Below, piece after piece: positions 14,550-62,035 of a stretch of DNA of 64,000 nucleotides. The position numbers were made by a program, and so were the translations under genes. Origin of the DNA: Vicia villosa (taxonomy: Eukaryota > Streptophyta > Magnoliopsida > Fabales > Fabaceae). The number at the start of each line of letters is the position of its first letter. Position 1 is the first letter of the stretch. Location: NCBI RefSeq assembly GCF_029867415.1, contig NW_026705173.1, positions 1-64,000 of the forward strand, written 5' to 3'. Below the pieces are notes generated by a model. That model was not told where the DNA came from. It saw nothing but the letters and a program-made list of their open reading frames with translations, and made no database searches.

Positions 14550-16770
14550 TGTTGCACCCCAAAATTTGCCCATCTAATTCCATTTCTAGTTGGCTTTTGT
14601 TTTCCCATTTCCTCTGCATTATCACCTCAGTAGGTCATCGATAAAATCATGTATTCATCCAACAATAAAGCTTGACAGTGGATCATTGGATCATTGGTTA
14701 TATAAATTAGGGTTCCATCCCTTATGAAGGAGTTTAACAAGGTTTTCCAAATAAGAATCAAGAATCAGGGTTTATTTCCCTATGCTTGCATTCATCAAAG
14801 TTTTTATTGAGATCAACTGGATTAATTTCAATATTCATTTATTAACCAGGGGGTCTTTCTTATGGAACTCAGACATAATCATTTGGTACACTACTTGAAT
14901 TGTAAGTTATGGTGCATTACAAGCTTTATGAGATTCGTATGGTGATTACTTATCTTGAACTATGGCTTAGAAAAGAGGTAACTGGTGTGTGGTTGATTTT
15001 TTCGGTCAAAGTCAACAATGAAGGTTGACTGTCGACTATAAACACTTTTAAGATCTGTAATTTCCATCTTATGTTGTGGTTGCTACTTCAAATACAAAAG
15101 GTGAAAGAAGAATTTGAATTCTAAGTTCATACAATAAATAGAGGAAAATCTCATTCTTCAATATTGATTACAAGTCATTACATTGGTTACAGAAGGGAGC
15201 TATCATTACAAATTTATACAAAGTTTCAAAATTCAAGCAGACCACAACCATGCCATTCAATTCATATTGACGGTCCCTGTACATAGCAGTTCCTAAACTA
15301 ATTCCATTATATACACTTCAAATCTCTTATAAAAATCTGGATCAAAGAACCTTCATCATTAAAAAGAATCCATTTTTCACCAACATATTGTTCATATACA
15401 AATCCAATTACCATTCAAAACATAACCTAACTGTCCTAATGGTTAACAAACTAACATAACAGAAAATCCAATATGTCTTTCCAAGCTACAATTCTGCCAT
15501 GCTTCCGCCTCCTTGTAACGACTACGATCATCCATCAGACATCACAAATCCAAGCCACCTCTCAGTTCAGCCGTGTGGTCTTGTAATCAGTCCCTAATCT
15601 TGCTCAAACCTGCACAAAAGAAAAAGAAAAAAAGCAGTATTACCAAACTGACATTTCACTCCCCTGTTGATTCAAATCAATTCCCAAAGTGGAAGTAGCA
15701 AAACAAAACATACAATCAAGCAAACTCCAGTCTCATTCAGATTCGATACATACAATATATTCATAAATTCACATCTTATTCCAAGAAAAAGGAGAGGGAT
15801 GGTTCAGTTCAACGATTGTGCAGTCAAGAAAAAAAAGAAAAGCTAATACTTTTTTCAGATTGGAACTGTCCTAACAAATCATCTAACATATAACCTCACA
15901 ACAAACTGTTTTTCTTTTTAACCTTCAACCTTAACTAACTTAAACAGTTTAACAAACTAACAGTTTCAAACCACCTAACCGATTTCAGTTACTATCCTAC
16001 AAATTTTCAACTAACCTAACTGCCAAGTAACCAACCATATAACTGTCATAACCACCACCTAACAGTTGCAACTAACTGACTTTTCCCAATCATTGTTTCA
16101 AACTAACACTAACTGTTTCAAACTAATTTATAACTAACAGAAGTGCAACCATATAACAGTTTGTAACTAACATTTTCCACCCCTAACTAACTTTCTATCC
16201 AGTTACTAACAGAATCATAACTGACTCAAACTACCCTAACCAACTTCAATCTACACCCTTCAATTCGTAACAGAATCCCTAGGATCTAAGGGCTCAGAGC
16301 TTCTCACCTTCATCTATATATCTCGAGCTTCCCTCCATAATTGAGTCTCTACACCATTTTCTTTCACCTTCACTTCAATCTCTCTGCACCAACTCTCTAC
16401 ATCTTCAATAACACCTCGCCTTCATCACCCTCACCATCACTATACGCTCACCTCCATTGTTGAGCAGAGATTCAACCTCTGAAACTCTTCTACAACAGAG
16501 CTAAGCCCTCACCTTCATCACTCAATCTCTCAATCAGAGTTCACAACACACACGCGGGAAAGGAAAACAACAAAAGAAGAGAAGAATATGAAGAAGTGAG
16601 AGATCAAGAAACACTTGAAGAAGTTATCATCTTCCTCAACCGCGTCTACTTCACCAACACCTCCAAGTGGAACCTCATTTCTTCTCGATCTCCACTCCTC
16701 TCGGCACTTCAGGTAAGTCTTCAGAACTCTCTTTCTTGCGTTTTCTTAATGCTTTATCATTGCTGATGCT
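14550..16770 (+). repeat. 5' LTR of the Ogre-like element, left part
   Basis: Matches 39834-41407 base by base apart from scattered changes, and retains a 648-bp stretch (15317-15964) missing from the 3' LTR. The split occurs after ATGCT at 16766-16770. Confidence 0.95.
16314..16322 (+). promoter_or_regulatory. Probable TATA box of the Ogre-like LTR promoter
   Basis: CTATATATC followed by a pyrimidine-rich leader; the same site is kept in the 3' LTR near 40951. A canonical splice donor (CAG/GTAAGT) lies at 16710-16718, downstream of the likely start. The function is inferred from position and base composition. Confidence 0.5.
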
Positions 16771-17693
16771 TGTAACGCCCCGAATTTAATTAATTATTTA
16801 ATTAAATTGATCGAGGATTTATTCATTGGAATTAGTTGAAGTCGAGGTTTATCGGTATTATTCTAAAGGCGTAATTTGGATTTATATGTTGATTTAAGCA
16901 GTTAAGTTTATGGTCGGATTAATTAGTCGGAGAAATACAATTATAAGTTGGTATTAATTAAGTTAAGGAGCAATTGTAGTTGTGGATTATTATTGGGAAT
17001 AATATCCGTGATGTTATGTGATTATTCAATTATGTGTGTTATTTGGCTTAATTGAGTAATTAGAGGAATATTATGAATTGGGCCAAAGTGGAAGAATATA
17101 ACACAATGGATGGGTTATGGGTTAAGCCCATTAGAGAAAAGATAGTAAGAGTTAGGGTTTTAGAGATTAAACCTCATAACTCATTTTGTGGAAAAGAAGA
17201 GAAAGAAGAGAAAGAAGAGAAAGAAGAGAAGAAGAGGGAAATCTATGGCATGAAGAGGAAGAGCTCCATTGAAGGAAGTGAAGCTTTTGCTAAGGTAAGG
17301 GTGGGGTTCTTACTCTCTAAGGGTTGGCATGATGATGGGTATGGTAGAGATTAGGTTCCATAATTGAAATCCATGATTGTGTTGCAATGTTGATGAATGT
17401 GGAATTGATAATGTTGTGTGTGCTTTCTATTCTTTGCAATTTCATTGAAACATAGAAAAGTTAGGGTTTAAGAACAAATGCATGAATTGATGATTTGAAA
17501 TGTGTTTGATTGATGCTTAATGATGTTGTGTTGTTAGAAGATCCATAATATGTGTTGTATTTGTGTTTATAACATGTATTATGTGGTTGTTCGTGATGAT
17601 TGGTGTTTTCCAACTTGATTGGGTTAAGTTTGGGGATTTTTGAATGAGTTTCGTATGCTGTTTCTGTGTTTTGGGATTTTCTGAAAATCGCCA

Positions 17694-17868
17694 GTTCGCG
17701 CCGCGAACTATTGTTCGAGCCGCGAACCTCTTGGCAGAAACTTGGGAAAAACTGGACCTGCTCAGTTCGCGCCGCGAACTATTGTTCGAGCCGCGAACTG
17801 CTTGGCAGAAACTTGGGGATTATTTGATTCACTCAGTTCGCGCCGCGAACTTTGTTGGCGCCGCGAAC
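17694..17868. repeat. CG-rich palindrome cluster in the LARD LTR
   Basis: GTTCGCGCCGCGAAC (7-bp arms, 1-nt centre) occurs at 17694-17708, 17765-17779 and 17836-17850. Variants with GTTCGAG follow at 17713 and 17784, and a shorter one near 17856. They are separated by TTGGCAGAAACTTGGG-type spacers. The same cluster recurs at +5,076 and +10,152. Confidence 0.9.
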
Positions 17869-17907
17869 CCTGTTTTGCAGAACTTTTTCTAAACTTTGAA
17901 ATGATGT

Positions 17908-17964
17908 AACTTTTGATCCGTAACTCCGTTTTAGGCGCCGTTTGAAGCGTTGGAAAGCTAATGA
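17908..17964 (+). other. 57-nt shared LTR motif, LARD version
   Basis: Begins AACTTTTGATCCGTAACTCC and ends GGAAAGCTAATGA. Copies at 22984-23040 and 28060-28116. Ungapped hand alignment gives 43 of 57 identities to the motif in the solo LTR (34803-34859) and 31 of 57 to that in the Athila LTRs (reverse complement of 57491-57547). Function unknown. Confidence 0.75.
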
Positions 17965-19728
17965 AATGAACTATACCATGATGCAATAAAATGATTCATA
18001 TGATATAGTTTCCTATTATGTTTATTAGGATTAAGTGATGAACTATGTTGTGTTAATAATATATGAAGTATGCCCTTTGCGATGAATTGGCATAACTATA
18101 TGGTAGTATATCTTGATGTGTGTTTTCTTATGATGATACAATGTTAATGGAATGATAATATGTGCCTTCCTTATGATGAGATAATGAGATATGTGATGAT
18201 ATGCATAATTGATAAAGATGTTGTATGCTATATGTGATTAATTGTGCGTATTTGATATGTAAGAGTCGACGACGATGCCATGCGATGAATTAAGAATATA
18301 TATGTCTTTATTAGGAAGTTGAATATGACGTGTTATGAGGATTACTTGAATTAAGGGATAATGATGAATGTGTTGATGTTGTTGGTGATATGATGAATTG
18401 TTGATGTTTGTCGTTAACATGATGAATTGTTGTTGTTGTTGTTGTAACATGTTGATGTTTATTGTTGTTGTGCAATATGTTGAATTGTTATTGTTTCTAT
18501 AACATGATGAATTCGTCGTTGTTGTTGTAGACCCTATGGTCACTAATGATAAGTTATATAATGTTGATAATTTGTATTGTGATGTATGGTGAGGTGAATT
18601 ATTGTTGTATGATGATGCAACATAGTGACGTGATTGTGAGGTGATGCATTCTTATGAATGATGGTGATTTTGTTGTTGTTGAAGTTCGACATTATATTGA
18701 TAATGTTCGATGGTGATTTAGACGATGTTGTGACGTATTGTTTATGTGGTTTGTATGGATGTTGCATTTATTGAGTCACATCCATTGCATAAAGAGACGG
18801 TGGCCTTAATGGTAAATAGCGACGGTGGCCTTGTTGGCAAATAGAGACGGTGTGCCCAATGGCAAACTTTGAGACGGTGGGAGTTTTACTCCAAATGGTA
18901 CCACATGCATTTGCATAAGTCGAGTCACATGTGAATTGCATTTGAGTCGTATTTGATTATGTTTGTGGTGACGTGATGACTTGATGATGAGATGTTTGTT
19001 GTGATGTGTTGGAATCTTATTTGTGAATTGCATATATTGTCATGGTTGATTGTCGACATTGTTGCCATTTCATAAGTTGATTATGTTATTTGAATTGTTG
19101 AGTCGATGATCTGTTGTTGTGACATGATGATAGTATAATTGTGAATTCGAATATGTTGTCTTAACTGATTAATGATGTTGTTCCGTTTTGAAAGTTGTAT
19201 TATATTGATAAGTTGTTTTGCGGTTAAACTTGTTATGAGATGTTATGTGATGCAATGTGGTGAAATTATGTATGATCTATATCTCCTATATTATTTATCA
19301 TGCATTCCTTTATATTGTAAGATATCTCACCCCTTTGCTGATATTTCCCCTACCATGGGAAATGGGCAGGTACTCAAGATTAGTCGTGGATGTTCGAGAT
19401 TATTGATGTGGAGTCTTGATGTTGCTTTATGGCATGTCGAGTCGGTGTCCATTGCTCTGATACGTAGCACTCGGGGGGATTAGTCTTTATTACTTTATTG
19501 TTGTATTCTATGATGATATATGTGTTGAATTGAATTGAAAGATGTCTATGAGTTGAAATTGGAAGTTATTGGATAAAGTTTTGTTTCCGAATGCTATGTA
19601 TCTTTGTTGATTACAATATGAGTATGTTTGTTTGTTTAAGTCGAATTGTGACATCCCATCTTTGATGAATATTTTTAAATGCACTCTGATTTCCGATTAT
19701 ATTTCCGGGGTAGATTTGGGGTGTTACA

Positions 19729-21846
19729 ATAGTGGTATCAGAGCAGGTCGGTCTGTCCGGCCAATGTTGTCTAATGTTGTTTATTCCTGTGTACGCGATG
19801 AGTGTGTGAAACACTATCGGTACTTGTTGTTCTTCTAATCGTTGTCTGCAAAAGTTGGTTTGAAGCTAAGTGGGGGAGAAGCTATGCTTCTCAAATGTGT
19901 TCAGTTGTAAGGTGTTAGTATATTGATGCTGAGGGCGACAGTGCAAGTGTTATTGGAGTTTGTTGTTTCCTGAATCAAAGATGATTTGGATTTAAGATTT
20001 TGTTGCTAATTAAGTGGAGCATCTTGAGGGAGAGGATGAGCAGGAATTTTTGATGTTCACTTCTCGAAGGACGAGGAGCTATGTAGAGGTTGTTGATATG
20101 CGAGTATGGTGCAAGCTCCTGATGTGTCTAAAGGTAACTGTAAGAAATGAGAATAAATTCAAGAAGATGGAATTTAGAAAGTGCGATGTTCCAGTGCTGC
20201 TGATGGACTGTGAAGTTGTTGGTTGAGCAACCTTGCGTAAGATGTCGATGTGGGATCAGTGATTAAAAGAAGTATTACTGTAAGATCGATGCAAGTGATT
20301 GAGGCAGTAGTAGAAGCCGTTGAAGTTGTTGAAACTTTCTGAAGCGCGAGTAAGAATTGGTAATGCGAAGAGATGAGTATGGTTTCAATAATAAGAAGTG
20401 TGGATAATGGTGTACATGAATTTTGTTCTGATGTATCGTCAGAGGTGCTTAAGGAAGTAGCTGCAAGACGTCGGTGTTAGTTTTCCAGATGATTTTGGAA
20501 GATTAGTGAATTATGGATTTATAGTGCTTCTAGTGATATAAGTACAAGTTGAAAAAGAACATTATTAATGTTGGTAATGATGGTTTATACTCCATTATGG
20601 TTGTCGGCTATCTATTGACAAATTGAGGACTTGATCACCCTTAATCACTTGTTGATAGTAGATGAAATCGTGATTGGATGTCATAGACGTATCTTGCTAA
20701 CTTGATAGTGCATAAAGGGATGAATGTTATGTCGTGAAGATATCTAGTTGGCAGGAATTAACGGAAAAGTATCCATGAATATTTGAGAAGTAATGAACAA
20801 GTCGGAGAAGCTGGTTTATAGGTGAGATAACGTCGCAAAGTGAAGGATAGAGAATGTCGAGTGAGCATCGATTTTGTGATGGATGTTTAAGGAAGTCTGA
20901 ACTAGATTAAGACTTGTGAACCATACAATTGATGGAAAGATTTAACCTGGACGGTGACTTAAGATGGATTATCAGAGTGGTGCAGCGGACGTGTAAGGTG
21001 GCGCAGTTGTTATGCGTGTGTGTTTGTTAGAGATGGAAAATCAAGTATCAGAAGCCTAGGAGAATGGTATGTCTTGATCTACATGTTTGAGTTGGTGGAT
21101 GTTGAGGTAAGGACGATGTATCGGAGATATGGTATTTTCTCATGAATACTTGCCGAGTTTATAAGGACAATACTAGAGTTGTTAATTGATGGTGGAGTTG
21201 GATGTATTCGTCGAGTAATCTTGTTAAGTATATGTTATAGTGAGTTGGTTTCCGTTGTCGCGATATTGTTGTTGGACTCTGTAAGTAAGAAGTGAGATTC
21301 TGTACTATGACTGAGTTGAGTATGCTGGCTATGTTGATGTAACTTATAAGAGTGATACAACCAGGCTTAGAGAGAGTTGTTGGTGTTGGTTAAAGATTGT
21401 CATGTATAATTAAGGGAATGGAAGTAAGTATGTGTTCTGGTGTTGAGAATGTTGTTAATACGATAATAGTGTGGAGTTGAACACCCAAGTATATGAGGAT
21501 TATGATTGTTACTACCTTAAGGATCGATAGTCAAGGTATTGTTGAACAGTGATGACTCTGTTGCTAAGCTAATGAAGTGAGATTGTATCTTCATGTATAA
21601 GCGAGTTAAGGTTGTTGCTACCATAAGTATTGATAAGCAGGGAGGTTCTTGAGGTGGTTGGTAAGTTGTTAATGAGCAATTCATTGAGATGTCGAATAAT
21701 TCACGTTGGATTTAAGTCAGATTAAGTTGTTTTGGTAGTGGAAGTATTGTCAAGCGCAACTGAGGATCAGAGAGATAGAAGCGAAGTTAAGGATGATTAT
21801 GTCGGATAGATTTTCGAGGACGAAAATATTCTAAGTGGGGGAGAGT
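19729..21846 (+). other. LARD internal region 1 (non-coding) with primer site and purine tract
   Basis: The primer site TGGTATCAGAGC at 19733-19744 is the initiator-methionine tRNA type. The purine tract AAGTGGGGGAGAG ends just before LTR 2. The longest open frame (20014-20226, 70 codons) resembles nothing I know. I see no zinc knuckle, protease or RT motif. Confidence 0.9.
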
Positions 21847-24804
21847 TGTAACGCCCCGAATTTAATTAATTATTTAATTAAATTGATCGAGGATTTATTC
21901 ATTGGAATTAGTTGAAGTCGAGGTTTATCGGTATTATTCTAAAGGCGTAATTTGGATTTATATGTTGATTTAAGCAGTTAAGTTTATGGTCGGATTAATT
22001 AGTCGGAGAAATACAATTATAAGTTGGTATTAATTAAGTTAAGGAGCAATTGTAGTTATGGATTATTATTGGGAATAATATCCGTGATGTTATGTGATTA
22101 TTCAATTATGTGTGTTATTTGGCTTAATTGAGTAATTAGAGGAATATTATGAATTGGGCCAAAGTGGAAGAATATAACACAATGGATGGGTTATGGGTTA
22201 AGCCCATTAGAGAAAAGATAGTAAGAGTTAGGGTTTTAGAGATTAAACCTCATAACTCATTTTGTGGAAAAGAAGAGAAAGAAGAGAAAGAAGAGAAAGA
22301 AGAGAAGAAGAGGGAAATCTATGGCATGAAGAGGAAGAGCTCCATTGAAGGAAGTGAAGCTTTTGCTAAGGTAAGGGTGGGGTTCTTACTCTCTAAGGGT
22401 TGGCATGATGATGGGTATGGTAGAGATTAGGTTCCATAATTGAAATCCATGATTGTGTTGCAATGTTGATGAATGTGGAATTGATAATGTTGTGTGTGCT
22501 TTCTATTCTTTGCAATTTCATTGAAACATAGAAAAGTTAGGGTTTAAGAACAAATGCATGAATTGATGATTTGAAATGTGTTTGATTGATGCTTAATGAT
22601 GTTGTGTTGTTAGAAGATCCATAATATGTGTTGTATTTGTGTTTATAACATGTATTATGTGGTTGTTCGTGATGATTGGTGTTTTCCAACTTGATTGGGT
22701 TAAGTTTGGGGATTTTTGAATGAGTTTCGTATGCTGTTTCTGTGTTTTGGGATTTTCTGAAAATCGCCAGTTCGCGCCGCGAACTATTGTTCGAGCCGCG
22801 AACCTCTTGGCAGAAACTTGGGAAAAACTGGATCTGCTCAGTTCGCGCCGCGAACTATTGTTCGAGCCGCGAACTGCTTGGCAGAAACTTGGGGATTATT
22901 TGATTCACTCAGTTCGCGCCGCGAACTTTGTTGGCGCCGCGAACCCTGTTTTGCAGAACTTTTTCTAAACTTTGAAATGATGTAACTTTTGATCCGTAAC
23001 TCCGTTTTAGGCGCCGTTTGAAGCGTTGGAAAGCTAATGAAATGAACTATACCATGATGCAATAAAATGATTCATATGATATAGTTTCCTATTATGTTTA
23101 TTAGGATTAAGTGATGAACTATGTTGTGTTAATAATATATGAAGTATGCCCTTTGCGATGAATTGGCATAACTATATGGTAGTATATCTTGATGTGTGTT
23201 TTCTTATGATGATACAATGTTAATGGAATGATAATATGTGCCTTCCTTATGATGAGATAATGAGATATGTGATGATATGCATAATTGATAAAGATGTTGT
23301 ATGCTATATGTGATTAATTGTGCGTATTTGATATGTAAGAGTCGACGACGATGCCATGCGATGAATTAAGAATATATATGTCTTTATTAGGAAGTTGAAT
23401 ATGACGTGTTATGAGGATTACTTGAATTAAGGGATAATGATGAATGTGTTGATGTTGTTGGTGATATGATGAATTGTTGATGTTTGTCGTTAACATGATG
23501 AATTGTTGTTGTTGTTGTTGTAACATGTTGATGTTTATTGTTGTTGTGCAATATGTTGAATTGTTATTGTTTCTATAACATGATGAATTCGTCGTTGTTG
23601 TTGTAGACCCTATGGTCACTAATGATAAGTTATATAATGTTGATAATTTGTATTGTGATGTATGGTGAGGTGAATTATTGTTGTATGATGATGCAACATA
23701 GTGACGTGATTGTGAGGTGATGCATTCTTATGAATGATGGTGATTTTGTTGTTGTTGAAGTTCGACATTATATTGATAATGTTCGATGGTGATTTAGACG
23801 ATGTTGTGACGTATTGTTTATGTGGTTTGTATGGATGTTGCATTTATTGAGTCACATCCATTGCATAAAGAGACGGTGGCCTTAATGGTAAATAGCGACG
23901 GTGGCCTTGTTGGCAAATAGAGACGGTGTGCCCAATGGCAAACTTTGAGACGGTGGGAGTTTTACTCCAAATGGTACCACATGCATTTGCATAAGTCGAG
24001 TCACATGTGAATTGCATTTGAGTCGTATTTGATTATGTTTGTGGTGACGTGATGACTTGATGATGAGATGTTTGTTGTGATGTGTTGGAATCTTATTTGT
24101 GAATTGCATATATTGTCATGGTTGATTGTCGACATTGTTGCCATTTCATAAGTTGATTATGTTATTTGAATTGTTGAGTCGATGATCTGTTGTTGTGACA
24201 TGATGATAGTATAATTGTGAATTCGAATATGTTGTCTTAACTGATTAATGATGTTGTTCCGTTTTGAAAGTTGTATTATATTGATAAGTTGTTTTGCGGT
24301 TAAACTTGTTATGAGATGTTATGTGATGCAATGTGGTGAAATTATGTATGATCTATATCTCCTATATTATTTATCATGCATTCCTTTATATTGTAAGATA
24401 TCTCACCCCTTTGCTGATATTTCCCCTACCATGGGAAATGGGCAGGTACTCAAGATTAGTCGTGGATGTTCGAGATTATTGATGTGGAGTCTTGATGTTG
24501 CTTTATGGCATGTCGAGTCGGTGTCCATTGCTCTGATACGTAGCACTCGGGGGGATTAGTCTTTATTACTTTATTGTTGTATTCTATGATGATATATGTG
24601 TTGAATTGAATTGAAAGATGTCTATGAGTTGAAATTGGAAGTTATTGGATAAAGTTTTGTTTCCGAATGCTATGTATCTTTGTTGATTACAATATGAGTA
24701 TGTTTGTTTGTTTAAGTCGAATTGTGACATCCCATCTTTGATGAATATTTTTAAATGCACTCTGATTTCCGATTATATTTCCGGGGTAGATTTGGGGTGT
24801 TACA
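21847..24804 (+). repeat. LARD LTR 2 (middle, mosaic)
   Basis: 2,958 bp. At the four sites that distinguish LTR 1 from LTR 3 it agrees with LTR 3 on the left (A22058, T22833) and with LTR 1 on the right (T24238, C24414). Confidence 0.95.
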
Positions 24805-26922
24805 ATAGTGGTATCAGAGCAGGTCGGTCTGTCCGGCCAATGTTGTCTAATGTTGTTTATTCCTGTGTACGCGATGAGTGTGTGAAACACTATCGGTACT
24901 TGTTGTTCTTCTAATCGTTGTCTGCAAAAGTTGGTTTGAAGCTAAGTGGGGGAGAAGCTATGCTTCTCAAATGTGTTCAGTTGTAAGGTGTTAGTATATT
25001 GATGCTGAGGGCGACAGTGCAAGTGTTATTGGAGTTTGTTGTTTCCTGAATCAAAGATGATTTGGATTTAAGATTTTGTTGCTAATTAAGTGGAGCATCT
25101 TGAGGGAGAGGATGAGCAGGAATTTTTGATGTTCACTTCTCGAAGGACGAGGAGCTATGTAGAGGTTGTTGATATGCGAGTATGGTGCAAGCTCCTGATG
25201 TGTCTAAAGGTAACTGTAAGAAATGAGAATAAATTCAAGAAGATGGAATTTAGAAAGTGCGATGTTCCAGTGCTGCTGATGGACTGTGAAGTTGTTGGTT
25301 GAGCAACCTTGCGTAAGATGTCGATGTGGGATCAGTGATTAAAAGAAGTATTACTGTAAGATCGATGCAAGTGATTGAGGCAGTAGTAGAAGCCGTTGAA
25401 GTTGTTGAAACTTTCTGAAGCGCGAGTAAGAATTGGTAATGCGAAGAGATGAGTATGGTTTCAATAATAAGAAGTGTGGATAATGGTGTACATGAATTTT
25501 GTTCTGATGTATCGTCAGAGGTGCTTAAGGAAGTAGCTGCAAGACGTCGGTGTTAGTTTTCCAGATGATTTTGGAAGATTAGTGAATTATGGATTTATAG
25601 TGCTTCTAGTGATATAAGTACAAGTTGAAAAAGAACATTATTAATGTTGGTAATGATGGTTTATACTCCATTATGGTTGTCGGCTATCTATTGACAAATT
25701 GAGGACTTGATCACCCTTAATCACTTGTTGATAGTAGATGAAATCGTGATTGGATGTCATAGACGTATCTTGCTAACTTGATAGTGCATAAAGGGATGAA
25801 TGTTATGTCGTGAAGATATCTGGTTGGCAGGAATTAACGGAAAAGTATCCATGAATATTTGAGAAGTAATGAACAAGTCGGAGAAGCTGGTTTATAGGTG
25901 AGATAACGTCGCAAAGTGAAGGATAGAGAATGTCGAGTGAGCATCGATTTTGTGATGGATGTTTAAGGAAGTCTGAACTAGATTAAGACTTGTGAACCAT
26001 ACAATTGATGGAAAGATTTAACCTGGACGGTGACTTAAGATGGATTATCAGAGTGGTGCAGCGGACGTGTAAGGTGGCGCAGTTGTTATGCGTGTGTGTT
26101 TGTTAGAGATGGAAAATCAAGTATCAGAAGCCTAGGAGAATGGTATGTCTTGATCTACATGTTTGAGTTGGTGGATGTTGAGGTAAGGACGATGTATCGG
26201 AGATATGGTATTTTCTCATGAATACTTGCCGAGTTTATAAGGACAATACTAGAGTTGTTAATTGATGGTGGAGTTGGATGTATTCGTCGAGTAATCTTGT
26301 TAAGTATATGTTATAGTGAGTTGGTTTCCGTTGTCGCGATATTGTTGTTGGACTCTGTAAGTAAGAAGTGAGATTCTGTACTATGACTGAGTTGAGTATG
26401 CTGGCTATGTTGATGTAACTTATAAGAGTGATACAACCAGGCTTAGAGAGAGTTGTTGGTGTTGGTTAAAGATTGTCATGTATAATTAAGGGAATGGAAG
26501 TAAGTATGTGTTCTGGTGTTGAGAATGTTGTTAATACGATAATAGTGTGGAGTTGAACACCCAAGTATATGAGGATTATGATTGTTACTACCTTAAGGAT
26601 CGATAGTCAAGGTATTGTTGAACAGTGATGACTCTGTTGCTAAGCTAATGAAGTGAGATTGTATCTTCATGTATAAGCGAGTTAAGGTTGTTGCTACCAT
26701 AAGTATTGATAAGCAGGGAGGTTCTTGAGGTGGTTGGTAAGTTGTTAATGAGCAATTCATTGAGATGTCGAATAATTCACGTTGGATTTAAGTCAGATTA
26801 AGTTGTTTTGGTAGTGGAAGTATTGTCAAGCGCAACTGAGGATCAGAGAGATAGAAGCGAAGTTAAGGATGATTATGTCGGATAGATTTTCGAGGACGAA
26901 AATATTCTAAGTGGGGGAGAGT
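24805..26922 (+). other. LARD internal region 2 (non-coding)
   Basis: A copy of 19729-21846 with its own primer site at 24809-24820 and purine tract before 26923. The only difference I saw is G25822 where region 1 has A20746. Confidence 0.9.
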
Positions 26923-29880
26923 TGTAACGCCCCGAATTTAATTAATTATTTAATTAAATTGATCGAGGATTTATTCATTGGAATTAGTTGAAGTCGAGGT
27001 TTATCGGTATTATTCTAAAGGCGTAATTTGGATTTATATGTTGATTTAAGCAGTTAAGTTTATGGTCGGATTAATTAGTCGGAGAAATACAATTATAAGT
27101 TGGTATTAATTAAGTTAAGGAGCAATTGTAGTTATGGATTATTATTGGGAATAATATCCGTGATGTTATGTGATTATTCAATTATGTGTGTTATTTGGCT
27201 TAATTGAGTAATTAGAGGAATATTATGAATTGGGCCAAAGTGGAAGAATATAACACAATGGATGGGTTATGGGTTAAGCCCATTAGAGAAAAGATAGTAA
27301 GAGTTAGGGTTTTAGAGATTAAACCTCATAACTCATTTTGTGGAAAAGAAGAGAAAGAAGAGAAAGAAGAGAAAGAAGAGAAGAAGAGGGAAATCTATGG
27401 CATGAAGAGGAAGAGCTCCATTGAAGGAAGTGAAGCTTTTGCTAAGGTAAGGGTGGGGTTCTTACTCTCTAAGGGTTGGCATGATGATGGGTATGGTAGA
27501 GATTAGGTTCCATAATTGAAATCCATGATTGTGTTGCAATGTTGATGAATGTGGAATTGATAATGTTGTGTGTGCTTTCTATTCTTTGCAATTTCATTGA
27601 AACATAGAAAAGTTAGGGTTTAAGAACAAATGCATGAATTGATGATTTGAAATGTGTTTGATTGATGCTTAATGATGTTGTGTTGTTAGAAGATCCATAA
27701 TATGTGTTGTATTTGTGTTTATAACATGTATTATGTGGTTGTTCGTGATGATTGGTGTTTTCCAACTTGATTGGGTTAAGTTTGGGGATTTTTGAATGAG
27801 TTTCGTATGCTGTTTCTGTGTTTTGGGATTTTCTGAAAATCGCCAGTTCGCGCCGCGAACTATTGTTCGAGCCGCGAACCTCTTGGCAGAAACTTGGGAA
27901 AAACTGGATCTGCTCAGTTCGCGCCGCGAACTATTGTTCGAGCCGCGAACTGCTTGGCAGAAACTTGGGGATTATTTGATTCACTCAGTTCGCGCCGCGA
28001 ACTTTGTTGGCGCCGCGAACCCTGTTTTGCAGAACTTTTTCTAAACTTTGAAATGATGTAACTTTTGATCCGTAACTCCGTTTTAGGCGCCGTTTGAAGC
28101 GTTGGAAAGCTAATGAAATGAACTATACCATGATGCAATAAAATGATTCATATGATATAGTTTCCTATTATGTTTATTAGGATTAAGTGATGAACTATGT
28201 TGTGTTAATAATATATGAAGTATGCCCTTTGCGATGAATTGGCATAACTATATGGTAGTATATCTTGATGTGTGTTTTCTTATGATGATACAATGTTAAT
28301 GGAATGATAATATGTGCCTTCCTTATGATGAGATAATGAGATATGTGATGATATGCATAATTGATAAAGATGTTGTATGCTATATGTGATTAATTGTGCG
28401 TATTTGATATGTAAGAGTCGACGACGATGCCATGCGATGAATTAAGAATATATATGTCTTTATTAGGAAGTTGAATATGACGTGTTATGAGGATTACTTG
28501 AATTAAGGGATAATGATGAATGTGTTGATGTTGTTGGTGATATGATGAATTGTTGATGTTTGTCGTTAACATGATGAATTGTTGTTGTTGTTGTTGTAAC
28601 ATGTTGATGTTTATTGTTGTTGTGCAATATGTTGAATTGTTATTGTTTCTATAACATGATGAATTCGTCGTTGTTGTTGTAGACCCTATGGTCACTAATG
28701 ATAAGTTATATAATGTTGATAATTTGTATTGTGATGTATGGTGAGGTGAATTATTGTTGTATGATGATGCAACATAGTGACGTGATTGTGAGGTGATGCA
28801 TTCTTATGAATGATGGTGATTTTGTTGTTGTTGAAGTTCGACATTATATTGATAATGTTCGATGGTGATTTAGACGATGTTGTGACGTATTGTTTATGTG
28901 GTTTGTATGGATGTTGCATTTATTGAGTCACATCCATTGCATAAAGAGACGGTGGCCTTAATGGTAAATAGCGACGGTGGCCTTGTTGGCAAATAGAGAC
29001 GGTGTGCCCAATGGCAAACTTTGAGACGGTGGGAGTTTTACTCCAAATGGTACCACATGCATTTGCATAAGTCGAGTCACATGTGAATTGCATTTGAGTC
29101 GTATTTGATTATGTTTGTGGTGACGTGATGACTTGATGATGAGATGTTTGTTGTGATGTGTTGGAATCTTATTTGTGAATTGCATATATTGTCATGGTTG
29201 ATTGTCGACATTGTTGCCATTTCATAAGTTGATTATGTTATTTGAATTGTTGAGTCGATGATCTGTTGTTGTGACATGATGATAGTATAATTGTGAATTC
29301 GAATATGTTGTCTCAACTGATTAATGATGTTGTTCCGTTTTGAAAGTTGTATTATATTGATAAGTTGTTTTGCGGTTAAACTTGTTATGAGATGTTATGT
29401 GATGCAATGTGGTGAAATTATGTATGATCTATATCTCCTATATTATTTATCATGCATTCCTTTATATTGTAAGATATCTCACCCCTTTGTTGATATTTCC
29501 CCTACCATGGGAAATGGGCAGGTACTCAAGATTAGTCGTGGATGTTCGAGATTATTGATGTGGAGTCTTGATGTTGCTTTATGGCATGTCGAGTCGGTGT
29601 CCATTGCTCTGATACGTAGCACTCGGGGGGATTAGTCTTTATTACTTTATTGTTGTATTCTATGATGATATATGTGTTGAATTGAATTGAAAGATGTCTA
29701 TGAGTTGAAATTGGAAGTTATTGGATAAAGTTTTGTTTCCGAATGCTATGTATCTTTGTTGATTACAATATGAGTATGTTTGTTTGTTTAAGTCGAATTG
29801 TGACATCCCATCTTTGATGAATATTTTTAAATGCACTCTGATTTCCGATTATATTTCCGGGGTAGATTTGGGGTGTTACA
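26923..29880 (+). repeat. LARD LTR 3
   Basis: 2,958 bp, ending GGTGTTACA directly before the second ATGCT. Private bases at compared sites are C29314 and T29490. Confidence 0.95.
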
Positions 29881-29885
29881 ATGCT

Positions 29886-32027
29886 GGTTCATCCTTCGCC
29901 CTTCTTCGAATTTCTTGAATCCCGTGCATTTTTGCAATTCGTTGATACTAAGAACTTAGGGTTCACATTTCCCCTTGTCGATCTGCGGCGATTAGAGCGT
30001 TCTCTTTATGAAATTGAGGTCGGGATAGGGTTCACATGGAAGCAGAGGTTGTGATTTTGTGTGTTATTAGGTGTAACGTCACGCTCCGCCGCCTACGGCG
30101 CGGCGGAAGCGATTTCCGGCGAACGTTTTATTTGAAAGAGATGGGAGAGATACGATAGAGAGTGTGAGTCATGAGAAGTCGATTAGCCACAATACACATA
30201 ACCCAAATTTCCCTTTCTATTTTTCTAATTTTCTTTATTATTATTCTTTTTTTTATTGTTAAAATCTAATAACAAATAAAAATGGATCAACGCTGGGCCA
30301 TACCAATTTGCTTGTTCACCCCCAAGTGGCCTGTTTCACTCATTTTTGGTAAACACAATAATCTGAAAACAACATGGGGCCTGCCACGAATTGATTTCGC
30401 CCCCTTGGCCCAGGTAGCGTGTTTTTGTCTTGCTGAATTAAATTATACAAAAAAATATGATGTTGGGCTTCTCCCTGGGCCCAGCGCCTTGCTATTCAAC
30501 ACCTTCATTTCAGTTTGCACCCCATGCTTCCTTACATTTTTTTAATTGAATTCATTGTTCTAATTAGTCTTTTTACTACTTCTTTGAGTAATTAAATTAC
30601 TAATTTTTCTTACTAATTCTTAGACTTTAATACACAATTTTTGTCACATAAAAAATGTTCATAAAAAATATTAGTTTTAGGCTATTGTTTTAATCCTTTT
30701 TGCTTAATTTGTAATTCAATTCCTCTCATTAAAATCAATATAAAAATAGTAGTATTTTTAGGCCACTTTTGTACTATATTTTTGGCTTGTTGCTTCATGC
30801 TTGTGTATAATTTGGTACCATTATATCATTCTCAATTTTGCTCATGTATCTTACTTATGACTTCTAATTGTGACTTTATTTTCACGTCTCTTTAATTCCT
30901 AACTTTAGGTAGAAACCATGACAACATTAGGACTTAGAAGTTCCATTCATAACATTAAGCTAGTTATTCATTTTAGGCTAGTTTTCTTCTTCTTTTTCTC
31001 TTTCAACATTAAAACATTAACAAATAGAGATGCGAATCACATTAAGAAAGTGATAGAGAAATGAGTGGGATTCATTCCCTAATCTGTTTCTCAATCACTT
31101 AGTGGCATAGAAATGAGTGGGATTTATTCCCTAATCTGTTTCTCAGTCACTACTTAATGGGAGACAAATGAGTGGGATTCATTCCCTAATCTGTTTCTCG
31201 AACATTAATGGGATAGAAATGAGTGGGATTCATTCCCTAATCTGTTTCTTGAACATTACATAATGGGATAGAAGTGAGTGGGATTCATTCCCTAATCTGC
31301 TTCTCGATCATTATACATTTTTATGTGATTCGAATTGCAAAGTAAATTCCCTTAAAAAACACTCAACCAAAAACACTTAAAACACTTAATAAAGGCTCAG
31401 ACCTAAACAAAGTAAGGAAGTGATGCGAAGCCTTGTATTGGTTTTTGTTCATCATGGAATTACATCTAAAAGACACAAACCAAGTTTCTCTCTTCTTTAT
31501 CTCGCCTCCGAGGCATTCTTTCTCTTGCCTTCAGGGCATTCTTTCTCCTAATCGGACACGTTATTTCCGCTCCATTCCCAGCTTAAGACTCCAGAGGTCG
31601 AGCAGCGGAGTGCGAATGTAACTGTTCAACTAAAAAACACAAAAACAAACAAAAACTAAAGAGCCGAACTACGGCGCTCTGATTCCTGAAACGGATACGT
31701 AGGCATTAGGTCGTGGGGCCTAAGCGAGCACAACTATTTATAAACCTTATTTTCCCCGTGTTTCTTTTCTTTCATCTGCATGCATTCCCTTAGTGATTAA
31801 GCTTTAAATTTATACACCCTTTAGATAGCAACAAACATAGGTGGATACCATCGAGTACGATGGGCGTGAGGGATGCTAGCACCTTGCCCTTGCGTAACCG
31901 ACTCCCGTACCCTATCTCTGGTCGAAAGACCTCGTTCTTATCCATCTTAGGTTTTCTGATATTCCTTTCCCTCTTTGGGATAAATATATTGGTGGCGACT
32001 CTGTTCACATTTCGCGAGCGTGCGACA
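29886..32027 (+). repeat. 5' LTR of the Ogre-like element, right part
   Basis: Continues the LTR after the array and matches 41408-43554. Ends GTGCGACA at 32027, next to the primer site. The small open frames here (such as 30282-30545) recur in the other LTR as part of the repeat and are not credible genes. Confidence 0.95.
31055..31312 (+). repeat. Five-unit tandem repeat inside the Ogre-like LTR
   Basis: Units of about 50 bp built on GAGTGGGATTCATTCCCTAA and TCTGTTTCTC. GGGATTCATTCCC is a short inverted repeat (GGGA/TCCC arms). Repeated in the 3' LTR at about 42580-42838. Confidence 0.9.
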
Positions 32028-32891: not shown

Positions 32892-34581
32892 ATGGAGAAC
32901 TATGAACAAGATCAAGCTGCCATTAGAGAAGAGATGGACCAAATGAAAGGCAAGGTTGATGCTATTTTGGAAGCCCTCCAAGCTTTGAGAAATGAAAGGA
33001 TTCCTGTTGTGCAAGAGACTCTTGTTGGTGCTAATCAAGCTGCTGCTAGTCAACCTGATGTCATTCCGCCTTCTACTAATCCACCTGAGTTCCAACCAAG
33101 GACTAATGCTACTCTTGGGATGCCATTTAGCTTCATGACTGCTGATACTCTTGGAGCTTCAAACCAAGGAGGACCCATGCCCATAACTTCTGGAGTGCCA
33201 ACTATGACTGGGCCTGTTTTCCCGTTTCCTACTCCGCCTCCTCATACAGAGATTCCTTATCCTGCTTTCGGTGGTCCTCAGTCTGCTAATCCAGAAATGC
33301 ACCCAATACCAACTGTTGAAAGAGCTCGACCCATTGAGAGATCTGCTGAGAAGTATCAAATTCTTGAGGAAAGGATTCGAGCTATTGAAGGTTTTAGTGC
33401 CTATGGGATGGACGCTGAAGAGATGTGCTTAGTTCCTAATCTGGTTATTCCTCCCAAGTTCAAGACTCCCGACTTTCAGAAGTACAAGGGTTTGAGCTGT
33501 CCAAAGAGCCATATCATCATGTACTGTCGTAAGATGGCTTCTCACATCCACAATGACTCATTGCTCATCCATTGCTTTCAAGATAGCTTGTCTAGGGCAT
33601 CTTTGAACCGGTATATGAATCTGGAGCGTAATAGAATCCGATCTTGGAACGATTTGTCTGATGCCTTTCTCAAGCAATACCAATACAACATTGACATGGC
33701 ACCAACTAGGTTGCAACTACAGAATCAAGTGCAAAGAACCAATGAGACATTCAAAGAATATGCCCAAAGGTGGAGAGAAATGGCTACCCAAGTTAATCCA
33801 CCACTTTCTGAATCCGAATTGGTTGACATGTTCATGAACACTCTTCAGGGGCAATATTACGAAAGGATGGTGGGTAGTGTTTCTTCTGGCTTCTCCAATC
33901 TGGTCAGGATTGGTGAAAGAATTGAGAATGGCTTGAAAATTGGTAAGATCCAGAATCCCGCCAACGCTGTAACACCCCGTTAATTCTTGTTTATTAATTT
34001 AATTATTTTTTAATTAAATTATTAGAATTAATAATTTTGGGAATATTTGGAAAATGATGAAGTATTTGGCATTGGGCTAGAGTGGTGGTTAGCAGAAGGG
34101 GGGGTGTTAACTAAGCAAGCCCATTATAATATTTTATTTTATTTTTCATAAAATAAAAGGAATTGGAAAGAAGGGAGGTAGAAGAAAAAGGGACAGACTC
34201 TGAGAAAGGAAGAACACGTGAAAGTGAGAAGAGCCAAAGGGGAAGAAGACCTTCGAAGATTCGACTCTGAGGTAAGGGGGGATTCTTCGGGTTAGTAATC
34301 CTTATGCGATGATAGGTAGTAGAATTGAATAGGATTATTGTCTATTTCAATCGTACGTGTCGGGTTTGGGAATTTGTTAGGTTTTGATGAAATTGTATGA
34401 ATTACATGATTCTGTTAATACTCATGATATATGCTGTTAATACTTGTATAAAACTTGCCTGAAATATGTGATGATGTGAAAATTGATGGTATTTGTGTGC
34501 TATGTTCGTATGTACCTGAAATTGGGAAATGGGATAGGGTAAATGTTGTCAAAAGGGTGAAATTAGCTGTGCAGGTACGTA

Positions 34582-34760
34582 GGAACCGGTTCCCATGTGG
34601 GACGAACCGGTTCCCCCTTATAAAAACAGAGGCGTGTGGATTCTGGGTTGCTGGGAACCGGTTCCCAGGTAGGGACAACCCGGTTCCCCATAGTAAAAAT
34701 CAGAGGCGTGTTTTGGGAAGCAGCCAGGAACTGGTTCCCACGTAGGGACGAACCGGGTTC
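34582..34760. repeat. GGAACCGGTTCC palindrome cluster in the solo LTR
   Basis: GGAACCGGTTCC at 34582-34593, GGGAACCGGTTCCC at 34653-34666 and a decayed copy at 34727-34738. Each has a second CCGGTTC-type half about 20 bases on. The repeat unit is 70-75 bp and includes CAGAGGCGTG. Confidence 0.88.
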
Positions 34761-34802
34761 TGCAGCATATTTTCTAAAAATCTTTTATCTTTAAAAACCC
34801 GT

Positions 34803-34859
34803 AACTTTTGATCCGAATATCCGATTTATGTGCCGTTTTGAGCATTGCAAAGCTGAGTT
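34803..34859 (+). other. 57-nt shared LTR motif, solo-LTR version
   Basis: Begins AACTTTTGATCCGAATATCC and includes GCCGTTTTGAGCATTGCAAA. Lies 43 bases after the palindrome cluster, almost the same spacing as in the LARD LTR (40 bases). Confidence 0.75.
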
Positions 34860-36366
34860 AAAGGCCTATATGATGAATAGGTAGTGTGGACGTAAAGTCC
34901 GAGTTTTACATTCGTGTTTATACTATTTATTGGATGATGTCTTTCATGTATGCGTGTGACATGTTTGTATGAATGCTAAGAATATATATACATGCTTATT
35001 GGTGATGAATTGGTGATGATAATGAAACGATGTGATACATCGGATTGGTGATGTTGTAAGCATGTTATATGTTGCATTCATTCGCATACATCTTTGGTGA
35101 TGGATCCCGGTGATGAAAGTGGATCAAAATGGTGGGCATAATTCCCATTGTGTGGAATTTGTGCTGGTTAAAACTGTATCTTGGTGATGAAAAAGATCGG
35201 TTGGATGGGTTTATCCCATGGATGGTACCACATGCATTAGTGTCAGTTCATTCATTGCATTATATTATGATATCACTGAATGATTGTGTGGAGTGATAGA
35301 ATATGCTTATGTACTGATGTCTGGTTGTTATAATAATTTCCAATTTTATGTATGATGAGTGGATGATAATTGCTATGAGACTTTATTGCTTATGATTGTA
35401 TAATGGTTATTAATTCGAATGAAACTCACCCTTACTTTGATGATTTCAGATTAAGGATGTAGCAGCGTCTTGATTGGGTGAAGATAGCTTGTAGGCTAGC
35501 CCGTAGTTCGTGTCGAGTCATGCTCTGATTGCAACACTGGGATCGATTAGTCTAGCGTTACTTGTCATACTTTGTTGCCATTTTGGCTATGGATTATGTA
35601 TTGAGCATTGTGTGGAGTTGTTTCCTAATACTCTTGAATTAAGTTCCGCTGTGCTAAACACATGTTTGATATTGGTTAATTTCTAATAAAGCATGCGATC
35701 GACTTGATGTTTTGTTTATTTAATAATTGTAGCATCCTTGCTGTTTATTTACTCTGATTATAATATATTTCCGCGGGGGTTTAGAAGGGTGTTACAAATG
35801 CTGCTGCTGCTAATCAATATGGGTACAAGAAGCCTCAAGGTAATTTCATCAAGAAGAAAGAAGGAGAGACTAGTGTTGTTTCTGCTCAAGACCAAGCTTC
35901 TTATTATCAAGTGACCGCCACCGCTCCTCAAGCTTATGTGGCACCTGTTGGCCAACAACCTTGGGTCCCTTATCAGCAATATGTCCAACAACAACAACAG
36001 CAAGGTTTCCAACAACAAGGTTATCAACAAAGACAAGGTCAACAGAGACAGAATAAGCCAAAGAGGGTGTACGATCGTATACCAATGACTTATAGCCAAC
36101 TTCTTGCTCGCTTGCTTGACCTTAAACTGGTTCAATTAGCGGAAGCTAGGCCTCCTCCTGATCCTCTCCCTCCAAATTACAAGATTAATGCTAAGTGTGA
36201 ATTCCACTCTGGAGGACCTGGTCACACTACTGAAGAATGCAGAGTTCTCAAAGACAAAGTTCAGGATTTGCTTGACGCAAAAGAGATCGAGTTTGCACCT
36301 GTGGCACCTAATGTGATCAACAATCCCATTCCACCTCATAATGGAGCTTCCACCAGTGGACCATGA

Positions 36367-38388
36367 AGACTTTATGTTTGTCAGAGAACATTTCATTTGC
36401 ATTAGAATAAGGCCAAGCTTGCCATTGTATAGATTTCTTTTAGTATTTTCCATTGTATTACTTTTGTTGTTATCAAGTACTTCTCATTGTAAGAAACTCA
36501 TTCTGTTTGAATAAATAAAAATGATGCAATATACATGTTTTTCTCAAATCATTTCATTTTTGTCATTATGTTCGTTGATATTCAACTCATTTGTCTTAAG
36601 CAACTAAAAAAGGAGAATGATGAAAATCAAAAACACATGAACTACTAACTGTATGCTTTTAGAACAAAAATCCTGTTGACGATGTACAGGCATTGTTTCA
36701 ATTCCTAAACACCGGAGTTATAAGGGAGTGAAACCTTCGTAAACCCCTTTGAGCCTAAGGAGTAGTAGTTTCTTTTCAAAAATTACAAAACCCTCAATCT
36801 TAACCAGGGGCAGGGTAGTTTTCAGTTAGTGCGACCGAGCGCTCAACTTTCAGGTATTCCATCAGAGGATCAATCACATCTCATATCTCACAACAAAAGA
36901 AGAAGAGCACTATCCACAATGGATGTCTCTCATCCACTAAGAAGAAGGCAATCACAACCTTTTCTTCAAGTCATTCATAAAAGTCATACAACTTGTTCCC
37001 GAACGAGACAAAAAGAATGAAAAGAAAGTTATGAATCATGATCAAAAAAGAAAGAAACAATAGTCCGCTAAGTCAAAAAGAAAGAAAAGCTTTGAAGCAA
37101 ATGACTTAGGCAAAAATTAGGGCATATCCCGCTGGACAACGAAAACCAAATTCAAAAGAAACTTTTTGTCCAGGCAAAGTTAGGGAAAGCAAAAGGCAAA
37201 AGAAAAATCCTCCGAGGGACAAGTTGTTGTGACCATCTACGAAAGCACCAAAGGGTGGCTGCCACCTCCATCAAAGCCATAAAGGATCCTCATCCATCAC
37301 AATCCTTCCTGAAAGGTGAATACTCGTGTCAAACTAGCTGAACGTAGGACTGGAGAACATCACGAAGAAGGGGTGGGTTAAGTAGAACTTGAGCCTTTAT
37401 CCGTTGTTTCTCAAACCGTGAACCCGACCACGTTACAACCCTGAAAAGTCCTAATTGAAGTAGGGTTCGTCCTGAAAGCATACTAACTGTAAGATCATGT
37501 CAAACCTGAATTTGCTTGTCACTTGTGTCAGTATCAGTACAACATTTTGACAAATAAAACTTTCCCTTTAAGATTAACATGTGCATTGCATTCTCATTAT
37601 CTTTTCCAAACAGAATTGTATCTAACTTGAAAGCAAGTACTTGATACCAAGGAAAGTTCAACATTGAAATTCCATTGAGTAATCTTACAAGGGCAATGGT
37701 TGGTCATCCACTGAGCAAATATCTGAAGCAATCCATCTGGTGGAATAGTTCCTTTCCATCTGGGGCATTCATTCCATGATCAACACTGGGGCAGACCATT
37801 GCAAATCTCCACAATTCAAGCATATCAAAGTTCTTTCACAAAAGATCATCCAGGCTGGGGCAAGCTAGCAATAATTCATTTCTTCATCTTCAATCAAGTG
37901 TCATATACCGAGACAGGTGTCGAGGAGTCAAGCCAAACACCTCACCTTCACAAATTCTATCCTTCAAGCAACAACCTTTCTGCAAGGAACCCTCCATTCA
38001 CTCCTAGTATCATGGAAATAGTCATTCCATTCATAATCATACATACATCATGCATATCATTGCATTTTCATTATCATTTCTCCCACATGATCCAATCATC
38101 AACAAATCAGGGGCATCCACCCCACCTTGATTCTCAAACAGAGTTTCAGAGCTCCACCTAATCTATTCCACATCAAAGCAGAAACCCTAATCAATCACTA
38201 CACTGCATATAGAATCCATAGCATTGCATCTCCAGAAGTGCACAAATAAATCAAACATTGCATATGAAGCATAAGCCAAGTTACTCATCAGATGAGGTCC
38301 CTACAAAGCATTCAATTGATATTCCACTGGATCACTCAGAGTTACCATTGTGGTGTCATCTCCCAAAGTCAATCATGTTCATCTTTCT
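36367..38388 (+). other. Post-gag untranslated region of the Ogre-like element
   Basis: No pol motif in any frame that I could recognise. A-rich stretches near 37010-37220 and a few short open frames only. This is where protease-RT-integrase would be in a complete Ogre element. Confidence 0.6.
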
Positions 38389-42800: not shown

Positions 42801-43554
42801 GTGAGTGGGATTCATTCCCTAATCTGCTTCTCGATCATTATACATTTTTATGTGATTCGAATCGCAAAGTAAATTCCCTTAAAAAACACTCAACCAAAAA
42901 CACTTAAAACACTTAATAAAGGCTCAGACCTAAACAAAGTAAGGAAGTGATGCGAAGCCTTGTATTGGGTTTTGTTCATCATGGAATTACATCTAAAAGA
43001 CACAAACCAAGTTTCTCTCTTCTTTATCTCGCCTCCGAGGCATTCTTTCTCTTGCCTTCAGGGCATTCTTTCTCCTAATTGGACACGTTATTTCCACTCC
43101 ATTCCCAGCTTAAGACTCCAGAGGTCGAGCAGCGGAGTGCGAATGTAACTGTTCAACTAAAAAACACAAAAACAAACAAAAACTAAAGAGCCGAACTACG
43201 ATGCTCTGATTCCTGAAAAGGATAAGTAGGCATTCGGTCGCGGGGCCTAAGCGAGCACAACTATTTATAAACCTTATTTTCCCCGTGTTACTTTTCTTTC
43301 ATCTGCATGCATTCCCTTAGTGATTAAGCTTTAAATTTATACACCCTTTAGATAGCAACAAACATAGGTGGATACCATCGAGTACGATGGGCGTGAGGGA
43401 TGCTAGGACCTTCCCCTTGCGTAACCAACTCCCGTACCCTATCTCTGGTCGAAAGACCTCGTTCTTATCCATCTTAGGTTTTCTGATATTCCTTTCCCTC
43501 TTTGGGATAAATATATTGGTGGCGACTCTGTTCATATTTCGCGAGCGTGCGACA
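39834..43554 (+). repeat. 3' LTR of the Ogre-like element (3,721 bp)
   Basis: Matches the interrupted 5' LTR. It lacks 648 bp present there: the join lies at TTCAAA (40603-40608), a 6-base string found at both ends of the missing stretch in the 5' LTR (15317-15322 and 15965-15970). Substitutions are more frequent than in the LARD array, so this element is older than the array inside it. Confidence 0.95.
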
Positions 43555-59225: not shown

Positions 59226-59274
59226 GTGGGTTGCCTCCCAAGGAGTGCTTCGTTTAACGTCACATGGCTCGACG
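59226..59274 (-). other. Conserved Athila box with GGGAGGCAACCC hairpin, minus-strand copy
   Basis: Minus strand: GTCGAGCCATGTGACGTTAA, then CTTGGG-AGGCAA-CCCACG. The four inner base pairs and the loop equal those of the plus-strand copy at 54854-54871; the outer pairs differ. Confidence 0.7.
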
Positions 59275-59289
59275 GTCCATTACCCATTA

Positions 59290-61869: not shown

Positions 61870-62011
61870 ACAAGGTTAGACAGTTATTAGTTGGGAGTAA
61901 TCAATAAAAATAAATAAGTAAATAAAAATCAAATTTTTGCAAAAGAAATAAAATTTTAATTGCAGAGCAATAAAATTTTAATTGACTGAATAATAACTTA
62001 TATTTTGGCAA

Positions 62012-62029
62012 TCCCCGGCAACGGCGCCA
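62012..62029 (-). other. Primer binding site of the minus-strand Athila element
   Basis: Minus strand TGGCGCCGTTGCCGGGGA, the Athila (aspartate-tRNA) type, 6 bases inside the 5' LTR. Confidence 0.88.
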
Positions 62030-62035
62030 AAAACT

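Follow-up and report, generated by a model that had tools for sequence, protein, structure and literature searches.

A conserved 57-nt block and adjacent CG-rich palindromes in long terminal repeats of Vicia villosa

The long terminal repeats (LTRs) of several retrotransposon lineages of Vicia villosa share a conserved block of 57 nucleotides (nt). It was recognized in a stretch of 64,000 nt at the start of contig NW_026705173.1 (the window), where it occurs in the LTRs of a LARD element, in a solo LTR and in the LTRs of an Athila-type element. A first-pass annotation had described it as a possible control module that combines a kept block with a family-specific cluster of CG-rich palindromes. 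The block reaches far beyond the three families of that annotation. Its conservation extends from about −20 to +80, approximately 100 nt with the 57-nt block as core, offset 0 being throughout the first base of the 57-mer (17908; 34803; 57547 on the minus strand). In addition, the block is a recurrent junction in mosaic LTRs, which had not been foreseen. The arrangement is consistent with phased palindromes serving as dimer sites next to a constant promoter-proximal block, which would also be the hinge for template switching, a reading to which we give about an even chance.

The block in LTRs of the window and of the genome

Self-comparison of the window resolved the LARD element into three LTRs in tandem on the plus strand (16770–19740, 21846–24816 and 26922–29891), the first of which starts with TGTAACGCCCC, ends with GGGTGTTACA and is followed by TGGTATCAGAGC. 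Their blocks lie at 17908–17964, 22984–23040 and 28060–28116 (plus strand). The solo LTR (33968–35797, plus strand, TGTAACACCCC...GGGTGTTACA) carries the block at 34803–34859 (plus strand); its ends give no orientation by themselves, and its orientation was taken from colinearity with the LARD LTR. The Athila-type LTRs (56461–57824 and 62036–63398, minus strand) were also paired by self-comparison; they share their strand with the frames for gag and protease and have the block at 57491–57547 and 63065–63121 (minus strand). These positions agree with the first-pass annotation, whose ungapped identities of 43/57 between LARD and solo LTR and 31/57 between LARD and Athila were reproduced, the other LARD–Athila value being 29/57. 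The block is on the sense strand wherever orientation is readable, that is, in loci L153, L157 and LARD from TGGTATCAGAGC after the LTR, and in the Athila-type element and locus L185 from gag and pol, respectively, on the block strand.

The genome of the window (2.03 Gb, 1,888 contigs) was searched with patterns of the two half-blocks. The pattern CTTTTGATCCGNNNNTCCGNNT had 2,816 matches (1370+1446) and TCCGNNTN10TN5CNTTGGAAAGCT had 5,499 (2694+2805), some places being matched by both, versus 0 for both patterns reversed. At places found by one pattern the other half was usually visible. An Athila-type pattern had 350+434 matches, and none when reversed. The first 100 places listed for each half-block pattern fell on one contig and included 30 and 29 neighbours within 15 kb, compared with about one and about three expected by a hand estimate. 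On the same strand, as expected of LTR pairs, were 58 of these 59 neighbours, including two pairs only 0.7 kb apart that represent double blocks. Double blocks in the same orientation, 675–677 nt apart, were found in L188 (1166 and 1841) and on the reverse strand of L207 (1474 and 2151). The second copy in L188 has GTAACCGGTTAC boxes, and the first copies in both cases have no palindromes.

Conservation was profiled without gaps, and with pattern-fixed columns removed, in the 1005 of 1431 pairs of 54 loci that have unrelated flanks. Identity was 0.48, 0.59, 0.52, 0.50 and 0.46 in successive 20-nt steps from −20 to +80, versus 0.25–0.31 upstream and 0.28–0.35 downstream of the block. In the first LARD LTR the extended block, defined by the peak at columns free of search patterns, corresponds to 17888–17987 (plus strand, offsets −20 to +79).

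The carriers comprise TGTAAC-ended LTRs, the Athila-type LTR and an element with a Tat/Ogre-type pol. The TGTAAC-ended LTRs (LARD, solo and relatives) are presumably Tekay-like, a chromovirus type, judging by the LTR ends and the adjoining TGGTATCAGAGC, the only parts read. In L185, with LTRs 13.1 kb apart, a single frame encodes RVT_3 (residues 87–197), H2C2 (289–344) and rve (363–460). A second RNase H before the integrase marks the Tat/Ogre lineage, and L185 possesses it; L190 was grouped with L185 through LTR likeness only. The Athila-type element (56461–63398) matched only Retrotrans_gag and Asp_protease_2, the latter just under the curated cut-off. Neither a pol frame nor an Athila-specific Pfam match was found in it, and the name Athila follows the first-pass annotation. 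A small element type with LTR starts about 3.6 kb apart also has the block (L191:1-2401 with L206:1-3620), and matches of this type recur every 3.2–3.7 kb, up to four in a row.

The identity of 31/57 between LARD and Athila is by itself not above chance. The LARD 57-mer reaches 32/57 at an unrelated place in the window (14704, minus strand), and blastn with word size 7 gave no LARD–Athila match at the block. A position matrix was built from 26 distinct non-Athila copies, including one LARD copy and excluding the solo LTR, and compared with a null in which one strand of each of 20 Markov sequences (64 kb) was scored. With 98 columns the three LARD sites scored 110.4 each, the solo site 94.3, the Athila sites 9.8 and −2.2, and the next place in the window −20.3. 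The null maximum was −12.8, below both Athila sites, which rank fifth and sixth of all window places on both strands. The Athila similarity thus survives comparison with a null model, since a matrix without Athila copies ranks the Athila sites directly after LARD and solo. With a 60-column core the null maximum was 4.7 and the Athila sites scored 14.0 and 2.4; the second copy thus falls under the null maximum, yet it is still sixth in the window.

Single copies pointed in the same direction. Aligned with the Athila LTR region of the window, 15 of 18 fitted best at the block, two tied elsewhere and one, the solo copy, did not (26/59 at the block, 28/59 elsewhere); with a further Athila-type locus, L208, 15 of 18 fitted best at the block and three did not. 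The three Athila copies were compared with TGTAAC-type (8 loci), Ogre-type (2) and other families (8), and identity was 0.64–0.65 at offsets 0–20, 0.39–0.46 at 20–40, 0.35–0.43 at 40–60, 0.32–0.39 at 60–80 and 0.15–0.41 outside. Between Athila-type families the block is the part that is kept. Six loci (L197–L202) share 0.93–0.96 with the window family in the block and 0.54–0.66 in other parts, and the seventh (L208) shares 0.88 and 0.51–0.71, all seven having been found by a pattern fixing 18 positions. A chance likeness of Athila, with the block confined to TGTAAC-type and some other LTRs, would suit the 32/57 of the unrelated place, the low core score of the second copy and the misplaced solo copy, but it is highly improbable given the rank of the Athila sites in a profile built without them, the 15 of 18 copies and the conservation between two Athila-type LTR families.

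The insertions of the window are nested between 14550 and 43554. The tandem LARD element lies in the 5' LTR of a host element, and the solo LTR in its inner part. The LTR parts of the host are 14550–16770 plus 29881–32027, and 39834–43554. It has a Retrotrans_gag match, and by this gag we take it to be Ogre-like. A degenerate tandem repeat (38383–39491) lies within the host element, and a 41-bp tandem repeat of eight overlapping copies (63482–63973) just past the Athila-type element.

Palindrome arrays and their spacing

The array of the first LARD LTR (17693–17870, plus strand) consists of GTTCGCGCCGCGAAC and degenerate partners. Palindromes occupy 17693–17709, 17764–17780 and 17835–17851, and centres lie at −206.5, −187.5, −135.5, −116.5, −64.5 and −46.5 from the block. 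The solo LTR has an array of the GGAACCGGTTCC type (34582–34762, plus strand) with palindromes at 34582–34593 and 34651–34668. In the Athila-type LTRs a pair of palindromes is found at 57403–57440 (57403–57418 and 57422–57440) and again at 62977–63014 (62977–62992 and 62996–63014), on the minus strand and downstream of the block in element orientation. The order given by the first-pass annotation, palindromes before the block in TGTAAC families and after it in Athila, is confirmed. Its claim of a palindrome cluster in each family stood for LARD, solo and Athila and did not hold for all carriers. Among 38 non-Athila loci a perfect CG palindrome lies within 260 nt upstream in 26 and downstream in two, leaving 12 without a perfect one upstream.

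The palindrome types include GTTCGCGCCGCGAAC, GGAACCGGTTCC, GTAACCGGTTAC, TAGGTCGACCTA, CATACGCGTATG, TCCGCTGAGCGGA/TCCGCTCAGCGGA, GGCTCGCCCGGCGAGCC and TGCGTCGACGCA, among others. One type may occur in different lineages, as GGAACCGGTTCC in the solo type and L185, and TAGGTCGACCTA in L166/L173 and L190. Different types also occur within one family (L185/L190; L181/L191). The idea of a kept block beside a fast-changing palindrome was borne out, as palindromes differ among otherwise related LTRs (these two pairs and L169/L173). The CpG content is 4.6–5.7 per 100 nt from −200 to +100 versus 1.2–2.6 elsewhere, a peak that covers both palindromes and block.

Palindrome centres, with one mismatch allowed, tend to pair 18–22 nt apart and to repeat every 70–74 nt in many families; of 16 types, 13 show the close pair and nine the 70–74-nt repeat. 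The list of centres omits eight of the 38 loci: one is a near-duplicate, and the other seven have no perfect palindrome. In 31 non-Athila loci the last centre is at −39 to −51 (16 loci), at −57 to −70 (nine) or farther away (six). On the other side of the block no centre pairs were found within 110 nt (34 loci including Athila). Centre distances fit best to a period of 10.3 nt (Rayleigh 0.53; none of 1000 random sets reached this value, the maximum being 0.30), in a test of 16 hand-picked types against a null that ignores shared ancestry and tandem duplication. The spacing is alike in families with different palindromes. A period of 10.3 nt is near the helical repeat of DNA, and for this reason proteins bound side by side on DNA are favoured.

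Other functions were examined as well. A conserved RNA fold was rejected because RNAalifold gave no pairs (0 kcal/mol, 31 copies, sense strand) and single-copy folds differ. Protein coding was rejected too, the best of six frames being open in 20 of 31 copies and the codon-phase entropies (0.84, 0.67 and 0.80) giving no clear signal. In the fold, frame, TATA and AATAAA comparisons and in the lineage rows of the identity profile, the Athila copies (window and L208) stood one base off, as did L208 in the comparison of 300-nt flanks. Rfam gave six matches in 17650–18050, all far below gathering scores, with none above threshold in the module. In the whole window it gave only the plant snoRNA snoR71 (RF00097; 53265–53371, minus strand; 42.8 bits, gathering score 40), away from the block. 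ARAGORN found no tRNA genes. The first-pass annotation had left the choice between promoter or enhancer, protein-binding site and methylation or silencing target. Of these, a promoter, enhancer or protein-binding role seems favoured because the spacing follows the DNA helix and there is no conserved RNA fold or frame.

Mosaic LTRs

Several pairs of LTRs are alike on only one side of the block. For 300-nt flanks (upstream, downstream) the likeness was 0.93, 0.49 for L172–L173; 0.58, 0.90 for L173–LARD; 0.57, 0.97 for L162–L167; 0.89, 0.55 for L193–LARD; and 0.95, 0.49 for L151–L161. Sliding comparison placed the switches of these five pairs within about 60 nt of offset 0. L151 and L161 have the upstream half in common from the LTR start and do not align past about +40. 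The L169–L173 and L162–L167 pairs differ mainly by a cassette ending at the block, and so does L155–L167, which has a second difference at about +200 to +550.

Among 40 clusters (780 pairs), 16 switches were counted at the block, 18 at −350 and 0–11 elsewhere, with bins adjoining the block not testable and pairs not independent. The −350 junction is near the block-distal end of the palindrome array. The block is therefore one of two recurrent junctions that bound an exchanged cassette. Sharing across lineages around the palindromes covers only about 40–110 nt; the best matches are 39 nt at 90% (L190–L167) and 110 nt at 75% (L177–L163), which do not establish sharing of whole palindrome cassettes.

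Relation to known systems and proposed role

The closest known kind is the palindrome module of Sireviruses (Ty1/copia), which the present module resembles without being a member. Sirevirus LTRs have a CpG island, made up of palindromic boxes, that precedes a conserved TATA box (PMC2829016). This order of palindromes and then a constant part resembles the palindromes, 40–50 nt and block found here. The CpG-rich stretch over the boxes is matched by the peak at −200 to +100, and the Osr10 box CGGTCTGACCG (PMC2829016) and the Athila-type palindrome share one core. However, Sirevirus boxes have a common CGG-CCG core and number eight or more per element, while several types here (TAGGTCGACCTA, GTTCGCGCCGCGAAC) are without this core. 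Sireviruses have a copia-type gag-pol, while the one pol read here (L185) has the gypsy-type order RVT_3-H2C2-rve. On these two counts, the one pol read and the palindrome types without the core, the present module falls outside the Sirevirus kind. The Sirevirus TATA box follows shortly after the CpG island; here there is a weak TATA-like rise and no strict TATA at a shared place. A 57-nt block, helical pairing and hinge exchange are not described for Sirevirus LTRs in the available text (PMC2829016).

Mosaic LTRs also have a precedent. In the Arabidopsis Ty1/copia element Onsen, LTR chimeras combine upstream and downstream halves of different members, and most fit a first template switch in R (PMC5668417). 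Here, too, some LTRs have halves that come from different sources. The Onsen chimeras arose within one family in the laboratory, whereas the exchanges here are deduced from sequence and involve LTRs with dissimilar other halves. In the Tnt1 superfamily, LTR evolution is modular, with U3 variable and other parts kept, as here; it is one Ty1/copia superfamily in Solanaceae, and the portion available does not describe a cross-lineage block (PMC1838419). General LTR models seek conserved features such as terminal repeats, a TATA-like stretch and a polyadenylation signal, and plant Metaviridae LTRs are too variable in length for them, so these models leave out the plant group studied here (PMC3601003). 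No description of the block was found in the mostly open-access literature, whether searched with block words or for LTR motifs that are conserved or palindromic.

Outside this genome, a Thinopyrum tandem repeat holds CTCCGATTT...GGCGTTGGAAAGCTA with a TCCG-to-AAGCT spacing of 35 nt, as in the block (PMC7349979). The score of its second half is 22.3 (null maximum 0.6), though the repeat was found via GTTGGAAAGCT and only the remaining positions are independent; its first half is unrecognisable (−3.3, null maximum 8.5). GGCGTTGGAAAGCTATTGGGG is present in Thinopyrum (PMC7349979), and a Dasypyrum CL95 primer is the same minus the first G (PMC12737168). In the sources as available, these Triticeae repeats are not shown to be LTRs, unlike the carriers here. 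These repeats would fit an origin of the block before the monocot–eudicot split. A Populus repeat with TAACTTTTGATCCG (PMC8584087) was set aside, as it was found by those letters, has no second half and is not independent support. The block patterns matched 7 and 1 stretches of viral contigs, by eye unlike the block beyond the pattern. In prokaryote contigs, among the 100 matches listed, at most 8 of the 13 block positions before the pattern agree, and at most 5 in 98 of them. Both sets are taken as chance.

To the cross-family conservation, CpG peak, spacing and mosaic switches, the proposed role would add a binding protein, promoter activity and reverse transcription as the exchange step. 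The 57-nt block would be the core of a constant element of about 100 nt in the LTRs of several Ty3/gypsy-type lineages and, with the CpG-rich palindrome array, would form a transcription control module. Each palindrome may be the site of a DNA-binding dimer, with dimer sites pairing two helical turns apart and repeating about every seven turns, close to the block. The constant block would be promoter-proximal, in U3 or at the U3/R border, and we propose that it is kept because the machinery meeting it is common to the families. The palindromes would change fast by recruiting a new factor or escaping one. As a stretch common to unrelated LTRs, the block would allow reverse transcriptase to change from one template to another during joint copying of RNAs from two families, and LTRs would in this way exchange palindrome cassettes or entire downstream halves.

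Several results weigh against this role. TATA-like scores show no more than a weak rise at +62, where 45% of 40 loci reach at least 6 of 8, and at −12 (30%), and no strict TATA or AATAAA was found at a shared place in 32 loci, two of which have a strict TATA at +69. The Athila palindrome order is reversed relative to the others, and a perfect CG palindrome upstream is missing from 12 of the 38 non-Athila loci. In the window's Ogre-type host element the profile scan found no credible block in the LTR, so not every LTR carries the block. Switches near −350 are as frequent as at the block, which is hence not the sole junction. The hand-picked types and the simple null of the spacing test count in the same direction, as does the dependence among the pairs in the switch counts.

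Among the alternatives, the block may be part of R, kept as the acceptor for first strand transfer, with promoter function elsewhere, which we hold to be unlikely. Its mid-LTR place, sense orientation and recurrent switches would agree with this, as would the Onsen precedent (PMC5668417) and pairs in which the whole upstream half is common and nothing downstream aligns (L151/L161, L193/LARD). However, R need match only within one element and cross-lineage conservation is not required. Moreover, several exchanges involve no single clean crossover but short cassettes that lie upstream of the block (L169/L173, L162/L167), and the phased palindromes and their nearness to the block are left unexplained. 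It is improbable that the block is a functionless relic spread between LTRs by recombination, its likeness reflecting repeated exchange; exchanges at the block do occur, but variant copies keep an ungapped register despite unrelated flanks, and palindrome spacing is similar across families with different palindromes. A silencing or methylation target, pairing with host small RNAs or recruiting a silencing protein, would fit the CpG richness, and escape would explain fast palindrome change. Such a target should be lost and not kept in the elements, and Rfam gave nothing above threshold in the module, which makes this quite improbable.

The dimer sites and hinge could belong to a broader picture, which we put forward tentatively, as possible but short of probable. 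The module may be an ancient Ty3/gypsy cis-element of flowering plants, with a constant promoter block and swappable phased arrays traded between unrelated elements by template switching at the block. Enhancer specificity would then spread between lineages in the arms race with the host, and the block would point to a shared host partner. If this is true, a control element common to LTR copies that number in the thousands in one plant genome would have been named. Binding and reporter assays could test clear predictions drawn from the regular spacing, and with the hinge the exchanges between families could be counted wherever a plant genome has been assembled. The finding would bear on the host proteins that turn Ty3/gypsy elements on or off, and on how LTR families gain new regulation.
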